From positions 248,001 through 312,000 of the forward strand of contig NZ_FXUF01000001.1 in NCBI RefSeq assembly GCF_900182905.1: a DNA stretch of 64,000 nucleotides, given 5' to 3'. Below, one piece after another: positions 53,928 to 58,650 of this stretch. The stretch's first letter is position 1. Each line of letters starts with the position of its first letter. A program made the position numbers and the translations under genes. Below the pieces are notes generated by a model that did no database searches, was not told the DNA's origin, and saw only the letters and a list, made by a program, of their open reading frames with translations. Source of the DNA: Anoxynatronum buryatiense (GTDB taxonomy: Bacteria > Bacillota > Clostridia > Peptostreptococcales > Tindalliaceae).

Positions 53928-54734
53928 ATGTTTGATTTTCATGTTCACACACACCATTCATTTGACGCAAGCCACCCGATGGATCTTCTGGTGGAACGTG
54001 CTATTCAGCTTGGAATCCAGCAGCTGTGTTTTACAGATCACACGGATTATGACTATGATGGCGCGGGCAGTCATTTTTCTTTTTCATATCAGGCATTTTT
54101 TGATGAAATCACCCGGACCAAGCAGCAATACAGCCAACAGATTGAAGTGCTTGCCGGCGTCGAGTTTGGTTTGCAGCCTCATGTATTGCAGAACTATGCG
54201 GCCGATGCAGAGAAGTGGCCTTTTGACTACATCATCGGCTCTCTTCACAGCGCCAAAAAAACAGATATTTATACCGGCCCATACTTTCAGGAACGCGACC
54301 AACGCCATGCATACCTGGACTATTATGATGACATGCTCCAAATCATCGGACAAGGGGCACCTTTTGATGCCATTGGCCACTTTGATATGATTAAAAGATA
54401 TGGATCTTTCGAATCGCCTCTTCCACTAACTGATTTTTCGGATATTGCCGCCACCATTTTTCGCCAGCTGGCAGCTCAGGGAAAAGGAATCGAGGTCAAT
54501 ACATCAGGATTCCGTTATGGTTTGAATGATGCCCACCCTTCAAGAGATCTGTTGGCTCTCTACAAGGAATGCGGCGGCGAGGTGATCGTCACCGGATCAG
54601 ATACACATCAGCTGGATGAGCTGGCTTATAAGTTCCCCACTATTTTGCATTATCTGGACGATCTTGGCTTTAAGTATGTCACCACCTTCAAGCAACGCAA
54701 ACCTACTTTTCACTCAATTCACAAGTTGCTTTAA
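53928..54734 (+). CDS. PHP-domain histidinol-phosphatase-like protein
   Basis: The 268-residue protein has the PHP metal-binding signatures: FHVHTHHSFDA at the start, FTDHTDYD near 37, GVEFGLQP near 85, GSLHS near 105, IGHFDMIKRY near 150 and GSDTHQLDEL near 225. It matches the HisK branch that dephosphorylates histidinol phosphate. No other his genes are near, so histidine synthesis is inferred from family only. A strong promoter is upstream and a terminator follows. Confidence 0.88.
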   Translation: MFDFHVHTHHSFDASHPMDLLVERAIQLGIQQLCFTDHTDYDYDGAGSHFSFSYQAFFDEITRTKQQYSQQIEVLAGVEFGLQPHVLQNYAADAEKWPFDYIIGSLHSAKKTDIYTGPYFQERDQRHAYLDYYDDMLQIIGQGAPFDAIGHFDMIKRYGSFESPLPLTDFSDIAATIFRQLAAQGKGIEVNTSGFRYGLNDAHPSRDLLALYKECGGEVIVTGSDTHQLDELAYKFPTILHYLDDLGFKYVTTFKQRKPTFHSIHKLL

Positions 54735-54760
54735 CAAAGGCACAAAACGAGCTACAGAAA

Positions 54761-54792
54761 AAAACCGCCGAATCATTCGCTTCGGCGGTTTT
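54761..54792. terminator. Bidirectional terminator
   Basis: A 12-bp perfect stem AAAACCGCCGAA/TTCGGCGGTTTT with an 8-base loop lies between the convergent PHP gene (plus) and the TIM-barrel gene (minus). Confidence 0.88.
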
Positions 54793-54795
54793 GTA

Positions 54796-55482
54796 TCATT
54801 CAAGTCTATATTTTTTCATGGATTCGGTGAATATTTCACCCGTTGAAGGCGGCGTGAATGTGATGGCATTGGCTCCCGCTTCAATGGTTCGTTTGATAGA
54901 CTCATCCGAGTTGCCTCCCGTGGCAATAATGGGAACCGTTTTGCTGATGTCTTTCCTGATTTTTTTAACAATATCAGCTGTCTGGGCTGCTCCCGATACG
55001 TTGAAAATATCAGTTCCGGCTTCTAATCTTCCCAGGAAATCATCGCTCAGCGTTGTCACCGTAATGATCACGGGAATATCCACAATTTCTTTAAGCTCCG
55101 ATATGATTTCATTCGGTGTTGGCTTATTAAGCACTACCCCAATGGCCCCTTGAAATTCAGCATGAAGGGCGATGTTCAACGAACGCTTTCCGGTGGTGAT
55201 CCCACCACCGACTCCACAAAATACCGGTACATCTGACGCCAGTAAAAGCGCCTGAGAAATAACCAGCTGTGGCGTGAATGGATAAACCGCGATGACCGCG
55301 TCTGCATTGGTGTTTTTGATAATCGCCACGTCTGTGCTGAAAAGCACAGATTTAATCCGCTTACCAAAGATCTTAATACCACTGGCATCAGCAATACAAG
55401 CCGGAAGTTCGATAAAATTACTGCGCAATGTACCTCTTATTTCAGGAATAAACTTTTCTTTTTTGCCACTCTGGTTTGTCAT
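54796..55482 (-). CDS. TIM-barrel protein of uncertain function
   Basis: The 228-residue product looks like a phosphate-binding (beta/alpha)8 barrel. Strand-loop motifs include DVPVFCGVGGGITTG, VPIIATGGNSDES and IEAGANAITFTPPSTGE, similar in style to HisA/TrpF/KDPG-aldolase barrels. No catalytic residues could be assigned. The start MTNQSGKK at 55482 is used; AAAGGAGG lies 11 bases before it. The gene abuts the GGDEF-like gene, so they are probably co-transcribed. Confidence 0.75.
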   Translation of the reverse strand: MTNQSGKKEKFIPEIRGTLRSNFIELPACIADASGIKIFGKRIKSVLFSTDVAIIKNTNADAVIAVYPFTPQLVISQALLLASDVPVFCGVGGGITTGKRSLNIALHAEFQGAIGVVLNKPTPNEIISELKEIVDIPVIITVTTLSDDFLGRLEAGTDIFNVSGAAQTADIVKKIRKDISKTVPIIATGGNSDESIKRTIEAGANAITFTPPSTGEIFTESMKKYRLE

Positions 55483-55509
55483 GTTGCCTTCAGCCTCCTT
55501 TACGGTCAA

Positions 55510-56145
55510 TTACGTTGCCCGCTGATCATACTTGTTGAGCAGGTCTTGAAGCGCTTCTCTCAATAAGCCCGCTTCAGTTTTATCCATTTGCCGCGATAAT
55601 TGATTCAACCGCCAGGCGCTTTCCTGCCTTATCACTATTTTTTTCTCAACCCAGTCGTCATTTCTGGCAATCTGAATTTGATTTTTCCCCTGCTTTTTGG
55701 CCAGTTTCATGGCATGATCTGCTGCACTCATCAACATTTCTGCCGTTTTACCATTTTGAGGGTAAGCTGCAATGCCGGCAGAAAACCGGATGGTCATCTC
55801 TTTGGGCGGGTCACCGATGAGCAATAGATGTTCATCAAAATAGGCTCTAATTTCTTCCATCATCAGAGCACCTGTTTCCAGCGGTGTCGCATCCATCATG
55901 ACATTAAATTCATTTTTTGTCGTTCTGCAAATGACATGGTCTGGGCTGAGATTATTTTTCAAGACATGGGCTAATTTGCGAATGACCTGATCACCGGTAA
56001 ATTCACCATAAAACCGGTTCACTGTTTCAAAGTTGTCAATATCCAGTTTAGCAACAGTGATTTCATTGGTGCAGGCCCTCACTTTTTCCTCCAGTATCTC
56101 GCTAAATGCTTTCTCTGAAACCAGCCCTTCAATACTCTTGATCAT
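55510..56145 (-). CDS. Degenerate GGDEF protein with ribbon-helix-helix-like tail
   Basis: The 211-residue cytosolic protein has a GGDEF-fold domain at 1-160. LDIDNFETVN (34-43) and FSAGIAAYPQNG (121-132) are recognisable, and AADHAMKLAKKQGKNQI is the usual domain end. The signature itself is TKNEF at 76-80, so diguanylate cyclase activity is unlikely. Residues 166-206 (KKIVIRQESAWRLNQLSRQ, then LLREALQDLLNKY) follow the CopG/Arc ribbon-helix-helix pattern. A nucleotide-sensing DNA-binding protein is suggested, as inference. It is the first gene of a pair with the TIM-barrel gene. Confidence 0.78.
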   Translation of the reverse strand: MIKSIEGLVSEKAFSEILEEKVRACTNEITVAKLDIDNFETVNRFYGEFTGDQVIRKLAHVLKNNLSPDHVICRTTKNEFNVMMDATPLETGALMMEEIRAYFDEHLLLIGDPPKEMTIRFSAGIAAYPQNGKTAEMLMSAADHAMKLAKKQGKNQIQIARNDDWVEKKIVIRQESAWRLNQLSRQMDKTEAGLLREALQDLLNKYDQRAT

Positions 56146-56207
56146 CCCCAGTCACCCCTCACGATGTCAACTTTCATTAGTATATACCCTTTCAACCTAA
56201 ATAAAAA

Positions 56208-56645
56208 TCAATCTTCGATGATTTCTATGGAGTCACCGGCCTTCACGGTGCCTCCCTGTATGACTCTGGTAAAAATACCTTCCCGAGGCATGACACAGTC
56301 GCCCACTTTTTGGAAGATCTCACATCCATGATGACATTTTTTGCCAATTTGTGTGACTTCCTGAATGGTTTCACCGACACGCAAACGCGTACCCACAGGC
56401 AGTTCGTAGAGTACAATACCCTCCGTTAATATGTTCTCGGCAAAAATGCCAGCTTCTAGGTTTTCAATGCCCAGTGCTTTGATTTTATCGACACTTTCCT
56501 GACCCAGTAAACTGACTTGTCGGTGCCATTCACCTGCATGAGCATCTTCCTCAAGCCCGAAATTTTCCAGAAAAACACCTTTTTCAACTGGCTTTTTGAT
56601 AACCCCTTTTTCATGACTGATATTGACTGCCAGTACTTTTGCCAT
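56208..56645 (-). CDS. MOSC-domain protein
   Basis: The 145-residue protein is a stand-alone MOSC domain. Characteristic stretches are AVNISHEKGVIKKPV, the DAHAGEWHRQVSLL segment, IFAENILTEGI and GKKCHHGCEIF, which holds the conserved Cys residues. MOSC domains handle sulfurated molybdenum cofactor. Its place after two MoeA genes supports a role in cofactor maturation or transfer. Confidence 0.9.
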   Translation of the reverse strand: MAKVLAVNISHEKGVIKKPVEKGVFLENFGLEEDAHAGEWHRQVSLLGQESVDKIKALGIENLEAGIFAENILTEGIVLYELPVGTRLRVGETIQEVTQIGKKCHHGCEIFQKVGDCVMPREGIFTRVIQGGTVKAGDSIEIIED

Positions 56646-56718
56646 GGTTGATCCTCCCCTAACTTGATCTCAATCCGTTTTTTGATTCACAAATGTTTTG
56701 TCAATGCTTGTTCATGCT

Positions 56719-58650
56719 TTACGTTGCTTGATTCAAATAAACCAACTCACCCGCCTGGGATAAATCGTAGCCTCCCATGGCAGCCACCTGTTTCTGGAAA
56801 GCATCTCCCCGTATAATTTTGAGTAATTCCTGGACAGCAGTTAGTTCAAGTGTACTCTCCTCACACAAAAGATCATAATCTTCCCAGTCAAGGTGAAGAA
56901 AATCAAGTTCCATGGAAGCAGCCGCCGAAGCCACCCCCATCCCACAATCAGCTCCACCGCTGCCAACAGCGACAGCAACAGCCATGTGAGTGGTCATTTC
57001 GCGATGATATCCCTTAACCTTCAGAGGATCAATCGAATCTCTTTTCAGGTAGTAATCCAGCAAAATGCGTGTACCCGCCCCTTTTTGCCGGTTAACCATT
57101 GTCACATCTTCACGGGTCAGGTCGGCAATACCGGTGATTTTTTTCAGATTGCCCCGGGGTAGAATCAACCCTTGACTTCGCTTCACCAGCTTAATCAACA
57201 CCATCTTCTTGCCGGGAAAATAGCGTGCCGCCATTGCGTCATTATAACGACCTGTCGTTTCGTCCAGCAAATGAATGGGAGCCATATGACACTCACCCTG
57301 TTTGAGAGCCATCAAACCGCCCATACTGCCGGCATGGGCCGACGAGAGAGCAACGCCTTTACCGCCTGCCTGCAGTTCGTTGGACAACAGATCCATTACC
57401 AAGTCGTGACTGCCGATGGAAACAAGGGTGTTTTGTATTTCTTTCAGAGGCCTGGCCAAGCGAATAGGAACCACCGTACTCTTCTCGTACCCTTCCACTT
57501 CTTGAGGTACTGTCAACATGCCATCGGCTCTCACCAGCGACATGGTGACCCCCGCTCCTCTGCTGAGGGGGGTCGCGATCCATCGTCCACTCACCTGCCC
57601 CAGCTTAATGCGAATATGCTCTTCATGTTTCAATGATGACACCACTCTTCGCGCCAGCACCGCCTCCACCATTTCAGGTTCCGGAGGCGGCAACAGCCGA
57701 TAATGGTACACCAATGGTTTAACAATCTGTTCAAAAACCACATAGGCAGAAACAGGATATCCCGGAATGCCCACCACCGGTTTTCCTTTCACTTGGGCCA
57801 GAATTGCCGGTTTCCCCGGTTTAATGGCTATGCCGTGGAACATGACACTTCCCAATTCACGCAACACATCCACAGTGAAGTCTTTGGTGCCTGCAGAAGA
57901 GCCGGCATTAATCACCAACAAATCGTTTTCAGCAACCCCCCGCAAAACTGCTGCCTCCAGCAGTCGAGGTTCGTCTTTCACCACCGGATAGGTGATTGTT
58001 TCACCGCCATAGGTTTCGATGAGCCCTTTAAACATCCGACTGTTGGATTCAATAATTTTGCCCGGGGGCAATGGATCTGTCATGGCAGTGATTTCTGACC
58101 CTGTGGGAATTAAACCCACCCTGATTTTTCGAAAAACAGGTACTTGGGTAACACCTCCCGAAAGCAACGCTCCCATATCCTGGGGGCGAATCAGGTGCCT
58201 CACCGGCAAAATCAGTTCGCCTTTAACGATATCTTCTCCCACTGGCCGCACATGCTGCCAGGGCGTGGCTGCACTTCTGATTTCAACGGTCTCTTCATCC
58301 ACCTCCACCACGTCTTCAATCATAATAACCGCATCAAAGGCATCCGGAAGAGGCGCCCCCGTATTAACCATTACGAAATCACTGTTTTGTTGCAGTTGAA
58401 CTGGTGTGGTTTCTGATGCCCCATAGGTTTTTGCTGCATCAATGGCAATGCCGTCCATGGCAGCTGCATTATAGTGAGGCGCTGAAATACGGGCAAAAAC
58501 AGGCTCAGCCGTCATTTTTCCCAGGGAATCCCCCACATCCACCCATTGTATTTCACGTTGATTCAGCACCTCAGCCATTTGTATCACGTATTCTTCAAGT
58601 GCTCTCGACAAGGGTACACTGGTCAGGTACAGGTTTCTCTTTTTTGCCAT
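56719..58650 (-). CDS. MoeA-like protein fused to a periplasmic-binding-protein-like domain
   Basis: The 643-residue protein has a MoeA core at about 1-405: AAAMDGIAID, NTGAPLPDAFDAVIMIEDV, GSEITAMTDPLPPGKIIESNSRM and GIPGYPVSAYVVFEQIV. A PBP-like domain follows at about 415-643 (LVSIGSHDLVMDLL, LSSAHAGSMGGLMALKQGECH, VNRQKGAGTRILLDYYL). In this family the C-terminal domain resembles molybdate- or LysR-type ligand domains. It probably acts in molybdate insertion with ligand sensing. It lies just after the second moeA. Confidence 0.9.
   Translation of the reverse strand: MAKKRNLYLTSVPLSRALEEYVIQMAEVLNQREIQWVDVGDSLGKMTAEPVFARISAPHYNAAAMDGIAIDAAKTYGASETTPVQLQQNSDFVMVNTGAPLPDAFDAVIMIEDVVEVDEETVEIRSAATPWQHVRPVGEDIVKGELILPVRHLIRPQDMGALLSGGVTQVPVFRKIRVGLIPTGSEITAMTDPLPPGKIIESNSRMFKGLIETYGGETITYPVVKDEPRLLEAAVLRGVAENDLLVINAGSSAGTKDFTVDVLRELGSVMFHGIAIKPGKPAILAQVKGKPVVGIPGYPVSAYVVFEQIVKPLVYHYRLLPPPEPEMVEAVLARRVVSSLKHEEHIRIKLGQVSGRWIATPLSRGAGVTMSLVRADGMLTVPQEVEGYEKSTVVPIRLARPLKEIQNTLVSIGSHDLVMDLLSNELQAGGKGVALSSAHAGSMGGLMALKQGECHMAPIHLLDETTGRYNDAMAARYFPGKKMVLIKLVKRSQGLILPRGNLKKITGIADLTREDVTMVNRQKGAGTRILLDYYLKRDSIDPLKVKGYHREMTTHMAVAVAVGSGGADCGMGVASAAASMELDFLHLDWEDYDLLCEESTLELTAVQELLKIIRGDAFQKQVAAMGGYDLSQAGELVYLNQAT

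Follow-up and report, generated by a model that had tools for sequence, protein, structure and literature searches.

The gene considered here lies on the complementary strand of a 64,000-nucleotide stretch of the Anoxynatronum buryatiense genome (contig NZ_FXUF01000001.1, positions 248,001 to 312,000; hereafter the window) and encodes a protein in which a degenerate GGDEF domain is followed by a tail of the ribbon-helix-helix (RHH) type. We favour, at a probability of roughly 0.55, the reading that this GGDEF-RHH protein is a one-component DNA-binding regulator, in which the RHH tail is combined with a non-catalytic GGDEF-derived domain that reports on a nucleotide, and which possibly controls its own gene. 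In such a regulator, the tail would dimerise and then bind DNA, while the GGDEF-derived domain, having presumably lost the synthesis of cyclic di-GMP (c-di-GMP) in this lineage and retained most of the nucleotide and metal pocket, would report to the tail on a bound ligand, probably a guanine nucleotide. We infer the direction of control as well as its targets, which might include the gene itself and sometimes also genes behind it, for a TIM-barrel and a zinc-ribbon-like protein. The gene and its parts are as follows.

55510..56145, complementary strand: GGDEF-RHH gene, ATG start, 211 amino acids (open reading frame; 24 of the 297 order genomes searched carry members near-complete over the profile)
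55678..56127, complementary strand: degenerate GGDEF domain, residues 7-156 (Pfam PF00990, 98.6 bits; fold match by Foldseek)
55906..55920, complementary strand: TKNEF in place of GG[DE]EF, residues 76-80 (translation and family table)
55525..55656, complementary strand: RHH tail, residues 164-207 (RHH_3 and Antitox_RHH profiles; helices from the model)

Domain architecture and distribution of the family

The preliminary description of this gene, made from the sequence without database searches, had noted TKNEF at residues 76-80 within an otherwise recognisable GGDEF fold, and this was borne out. The Pfam GGDEF profile matched residues 7-156 at E=4.2e-28 and 98.6 bits against a cut-off of 23.8, which places the protein in the superfamily, and recognition by Pfam and NCBIfam together spanned residues 5-160, with GGDEF_GdpP as a weak second Pfam match. 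The fold of a full-length AlphaFold2 model (mean pLDDT 82.7, from an alignment of 7 sequences) matched the GGDEF domains of DgcB, PleD and DosC (Foldseek E ~1e-14).

The fusion of this domain to an RHH tail, also claimed in the preliminary description, proved to be conserved as a single architecture. An alignment of 16 members (A1), all of which, the window protein included, matched Pfam GGDEF, was used as the query for 297 genomes of the order; 24 of these carried one full-length member each at E 6.4e-77 or better, while the next-best GGDEF matches began far behind at 4.3e-36. The recurrence of the whole architecture in these genomes indicates that the combination of GGDEF and RHH matches is more than chance. 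Seven of the 24 loci belong to the window's own family (f1) and 17 to a sister family (f3), which includes Alkaliphilus peptidifermentans and Anaerovirgula multivorans; among 60 near relatives the gene was present in all seven f1 genomes (its own included) and in five of six f3 genomes.

Another 16 members, the proteins of the family being about 210 amino acids long, were found outside the order but within the phylum. Conservation across several Gram-positive groups suggests a nucleotide-controlled gene regulator. Nine came from overlapping samples of 391 genomes of the class and 398 of the phylum, with only about 3 kb of sequence covered at each of L142 and L145-L147. Seven more came from the class of genome G1004, where 9 of 154 genomes matched and two were already in the set; in one of them (L184) the reading frame is partial or frameshifted. 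No new member was found in 59 genomes from the class of G998. A close-relative scan reaching beyond the phylum returned seven loci, of which six were family members from Clostridia records and the seventh, from Magnetococcales (L027), was unexceptional, matching residues 4-157 at 21%.

Loss of the GGDEF signature and retention of pocket residues

Active-site positions were tabulated for 33 members, 24 from the order and 9 from outside it. The exact signature GG[DE]EF, by which a diguanylate cyclase is recognised, was present in only one of them and is replaced by TKNEF in the window protein. Position 77 was occupied by K in 24 members, G in 6, R in 2 and A in 1, whereas position 78 was D in 32 of the 33, the sole exception being N78 of the window protein. 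D35 was found in 28 members, including the window protein, and N in the other five; N43 and D52 were each present in 32, L142 being the exception at both in a poorly aligned region, and K150 and N155 were present in all 33. We take D35 and the acid at position 78 to be metal ligands by equivalence with PleD, in which case the pair of ligands expected of a cyclase is incomplete in the window protein, and we take the PleD equivalents of the family's pocket positions to be D327, N335, D344, E370 and K442. The guanine base is bound by D344 of PleD, according to PMC7288161. Judged from these alignments, the ligands for nucleotide and metal have likely persisted in the family despite loss of the motif.

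Drift of the motif together with retention of most of the pocket makes cyclase activity improbable for the window protein and possible for distant members, and in the window protein the pattern of loss and retention appears to fit a sensor better than a cyclase. The source genome itself probably produces c-di-GMP, since 22 of 34 alignable GGDEF domains among 35 other GGDEF matches in this genome carried GG[DE]EF. A response of the window protein to c-di-GMP through the I-site seems unlikely, S67 and H70 occupying the positions of the RxxD motif. As a general mode for the family, sensing of c-di-GMP through this site was rejected; RxxD was counted by eye upstream of the motif in 11 of 33 members.

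Existence of homologues with an intact motif, which the preliminary description had named as grounds for doubt, was confirmed in part, and only among distant members. Motifs in six further readable members from outside the order were GPDEV, GGDEF, AGDEF, SGDEF, GRDAF and SGDEF; exact GGDEF was found in L146 and L185, both of one genus, AGDEF in L186, SGDEF in L187 and L189, and AGDEF with one residue missing ahead of the motif in L099. These intact or near-intact motifs are a point against a non-catalytic family, and the distant proteins that bear GGDEF, SGDEF or AGDEF could themselves be enzymes. Activity is known for certain proteins whose motif is AGDEF or RGDEF. An alternative is therefore an enzyme with a DNA-binding tail, at least the distant members of which cyclise nucleotides while the RHH autoregulates or ties activity to DNA. 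Wide retention of D35, N43, D52 and D78 would suit such an enzyme, but the second G of the motif has become K in most of the 33 members, D35 has become N in some, the window protein has N78, and a lysine at position 40, usual in canonical GGDEF domains of the same genome, was present in 1 of 33 members and absent in 32. On balance we regard this alternative as unlikely.

The high variability of motif and I-site across the family could also be read as decay of the domain to a dead scaffold that aids dimerisation only, the protein then being a ligand-free autorepressor or nucleoid protein. The near-invariance of N43, D52, K150, N155 and D78 in the face of motif drift, although some of these residues may be structural, would be needless for a pure scaffold, and we consider this possibility less likely again than an enzyme. 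The favoured regulator with a nucleotide-reporting domain would provide a direct path from nucleotide level to transcription, and the family would offer natural intermediates, from intact GGDEF through xKDEF to TKNEF, on which the conversion of an enzyme into a sensor could be tested.

The ribbon-helix-helix tail

The assignment of the tail to the RHH class, as first proposed, was supported by sequence comparisons across the family, the putative ribbon of the window protein falling, by sequence, at about residues 167-173. Among the 16 aligned relatives, window protein included, RHH_3 and Antitox_RHH each matched 14 at E<=1 (best 2.1e-6 and 3.5e-5, respectively). The curated cut-off of RHH_3 was exceeded in six of eight distant members scanned with Pfam (L076, L080, L081, L145, L146 and L147; not in L077 and L142). 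A tail-only profile also found small stand-alone proteins, and five of the six scanned exceeded the curated cut-off of RHH_1 or RHH_3. Taken together, the profile matches among relatives and stand-alone proteins indicate that the tail is RHH by sequence.

Several results weigh against this assignment. Matches to the tail within the whole window protein (8.3e-4 for Antitox_RHH and 0.0075 for RHH_3) and as a fragment of 53 amino acids (1.2e-4 and 6.9e-4, respectively) all fell under the curated cut-offs, and a search of the tail profile against PDB sequences returned no RHH protein. The full-length model contained two tail helices (174-185 and 190-210, with pLDDT below 50 at residues 164-170), but a ribbon strand was not formed in either monomer model, full-length or isolated tail. 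The isolated tail was instead modelled as a two-helix hairpin with a helical ribbon stretch (mean pLDDT 83.6), for which Foldseek found no RHH structure (best E 2.1). The model of the isolated tail would suit a helical hairpin that serves dimerisation and has no part in DNA binding. It is nevertheless weak evidence against RHH, since a two-stranded ribbon forms only in a dimer and the single-chain predictions drew on 7 sequences; given also the curated cut-offs passed by distant members and stand-alone relatives, we consider a plain hairpin very improbable.

An AT-rich element upstream of the gene in relatives

An AT-rich element resembling ACATATATATGT was noted near the start of the gene in f3 and in several distant members, a position that suggests autoregulation in these relatives. 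The mean number of mismatches in the best match to ACATATATATGT was 2.29 in f3 (n=17) and 2.00 in distant members (n=9), compared with 3.68 and 3.74 in dinucleotide shuffles, 0 of 60 of which reached the observed value in either group, and with 3.95 (n=78) and 3.96 (n=24) in regions upstream of other genes (one-sided p of 1e-6 and 3e-4). The distant controls came from five of the nine distant loci. Among the f3 controls, one with a low value (L091, 0 mismatches) was the divergent gene across the same intergenic stretch. Genes were mapped throughout as mechanically called open reading frames, some with starts called too early, which shifts the upstream region. In seven held-out loci, including L184 and L185, which were retained in the count with starts that were unusable or too early, the mean was 4.0 as compared with 5.10 (sd 0.29) in shuffles, and 0 of 200 shuffles reached it.

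Exact forms of the element were also searched for in whole genomes. The f3 form TGGGTACATATAWA occurred at 12 sites in 10 of the 17 f3 genomes, 10 of these sites lying just upstream of the GGDEF-RHH gene, while a reversed control pattern occurred at 3 sites in the same genomes. One of the other two sites lay within an open reading frame (L174) and one over the end of an open reading frame about 150 bases before the next (L167), the overlapped frame being one that we take to be birA-like. In the nine distant genomes TGACAWATATATNTG gave seven matches, three at GGDEF-RHH genes (one site matched on both strands, plus a single further match) and four within other open reading frames. Exact searches with TGGGTACATATAWA and TGACAWATATATNTG found no convincing second promoter in the 17 f3 and 9 distant genomes. 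Near restriction of the exact f3 form to the gene's own upstream region would also suit the ligand-free autorepressor considered above.

Autocontrol of the favoured regulator must be set against the following. The motif ACATATATATGT was picked after the upstream regions had been viewed, and the element was absent from the 7 loci of f1, the family to which the window protein belongs, with a mean of 4.43 mismatches compared with 4.30 in shuffles and 3.96 (n=27) upstream of other genes (p of 0.91); none of three motif forms tried, ACATATATATGT, ACATATATGT and GTACATATAT, was enriched in f1. Results from held-out loci were mixed, four of the seven carrying the effect at 2-3 mismatches and three standing at 5-6, and the exact form TGGGTACATATAWA was missing from 7 of 17 f3 genomes. 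In addition, AT-rich promoters in GC-rich genomes could explain some of the signal.

The ribbon pattern K/R-S/T-x-Y/H-Y/F, judged by eye, was present in 16 of 17 f3 members, all 9 distant members and none of 7 f1 members. This apparent change of the f1 ribbon runs parallel to the disappearance of the upstream element from that family, a single evolutionary contrast that falls short of proof. A wider possibility, which we hold as distinctly tentative, is that of a widespread class of one-component regulators whose former cyclase domain would sense a mononucleotide (such as GTP or (p)ppGpp, rather than c-di-GMP) and directly switch the hold of an RHH on an AT-rich palindrome in its own promoter, ribbon and operator having changed together in f1. 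A long perfect AT-rich palindrome (at least 24 bases) was noted in L142 upstream of the distant GGDEF-RHH gene at 1495-2058 (complementary strand).

Ahead of the window gene, one stretch resembles GGGTA-containing upstream stretches of relatives, and any regulatory role for it is speculative.

56175..56189, complementary strand: GGGTATATACTAATG, putative regulatory element, 30-44 bases ahead of the start codon (sequence reading)

A promoter-like match at 56170 was disregarded as it overlaps the start codon.

Neighbouring genes

The preliminary description had placed the gene in a two-gene unit with a TIM-barrel gene, which lies directly behind it and is followed by a terminator-like hairpin.

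54796..55482, complementary strand: TIM-barrel gene (open reading frame, weak matches to TIM-barrel enzymes)
54761..54792, complementary strand: terminator-like hairpin after the TIM-barrel gene (two such sites in 54700-56800 compared with 1.7 expected by shuffling)

The likely ATG of the TIM-barrel gene, at 55482, is 27 bases past the GGDEF-RHH stop and is preceded by AGGAGG, while the listed open reading frame extends to a TTG at 55509. Apart from weak matches to TIM-barrel enzymes, no curated family match and no function were found for its product. Identity of this product from one species of the genus to another is 94%, as compared with 63-65% for GGDEF-RHH.

Proximity of the two genes was supported in part. 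In 13 of the 24 order loci a TIM-barrel gene followed in the same orientation at no more than 1.4 kb, but it adjoined the GGDEF-RHH gene (within 100 bases) in only five. Two loci (L046 and L047) were cut close behind the gene, and neither genome carried a TIM-barrel gene anywhere. Co-occurrence of the two genes was likewise incomplete among the 60 relatives, in 16 of which the TIM-barrel gene was present; it was absent from 4 of 12 genomes with GGDEF-RHH, and GGDEF-RHH was absent from 8 of 16 genomes with the TIM-barrel gene. A fixed two-gene unit was therefore rejected; the TIM-barrel gene is often found nearby but is not an obligate partner.

In all seven f1 loci, GGDEF-RHH was preceded on the same strand by a MOSC gene and a pair of moeA-like genes. 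Of the 17 f3 loci, 15 had a MOSC gene farther upstream, with intervening genes that we take to be flippase-like and often also polX-like. Downstream in f3, a cysteine-rich, zinc-ribbon-like protein of about 80 amino acids with a DDYSPYL-like motif was encoded in 14 of 17 loci (L051:6839-7090, L089:6799-7041 and 12 others); the one member scanned matched no Pfam family over its cut-off. A convergent PHP gene was usual downstream of the GGDEF-RHH gene. Pfam was run on the moeA, MOSC and PHP genes of the window, and the gene at 56719-58650 (complementary strand), beside the MOSC gene, was seen to combine MoeA and a PBP-like domain (PF12727, E 1.3e-70) in one protein; the second moeA-like gene clusters with it.

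A role in molybdenum cofactor metabolism, considered on account of the moeA and MOSC genes, was rejected, as this gene order is common to f1 and f3 and occurred in none of five distant neighbourhoods mapped. The absence of the f1 and f3 neighbour clusters from near all five of these distant members indicates that the regulator is independent of those neighbours. Distant members L098-L100 adjoin genes presumed to be dapB-like, and two of them also a lysine 2,3-aminomutase-like gene. Searches of Rfam at the gathering score returned only two tRNAs in the window and nothing in four relative loci.

Comparison with known systems

No description of a GGDEF domain joined directly to RHH in one small protein was found in the open-licence literature, as covered by titles and the starts of abstracts. 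NikR is similarly a one-component regulator, in which RHH is joined to a ferredoxin-like ligand-binding domain, but its RHH is N-terminal and its ligand domain is of the ACT type and binds nickel. The YybT/GdpP protein of Bacillus subtilis, with the domain order PAS-GGDEF-DHH, is membrane-bound and without RHH, and PdeL of Escherichia coli, which carries a helix-turn-helix (HTH) domain, is catalytically active and has EAL in place of GGDEF and HTH in place of RHH. YybT/GdpP nevertheless resembles the window protein in its divergence from the GGDEF motif, its domain serving a different nucleotide function, that of an ATPase (PMC7288161). PdeL, an enzymatic EAL protein that acts as an effector (PMC12564702), is comparable in combining a domain of c-di-GMP turnover with a DNA-binding domain.

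CdbA of Myxococcus xanthus is likewise an RHH DNA-binding protein that binds a nucleotide second messenger, c-di-GMP, with DNA and c-di-GMP binding apparently mutually exclusive; in contrast with the window protein, it is without a GGDEF domain (PMC7156744). Decay of GGDEF domains into sensors is known from PMC7288161, which includes the case of Caulobacter CC3396. Although the output of CC3396 is an EAL phosphodiesterase rather than DNA binding, its degenerate GGDEF sensor is described as binding GTP and activating the adjacent domain, much as is proposed here for a GGDEF-derived domain that would act on an RHH tail.
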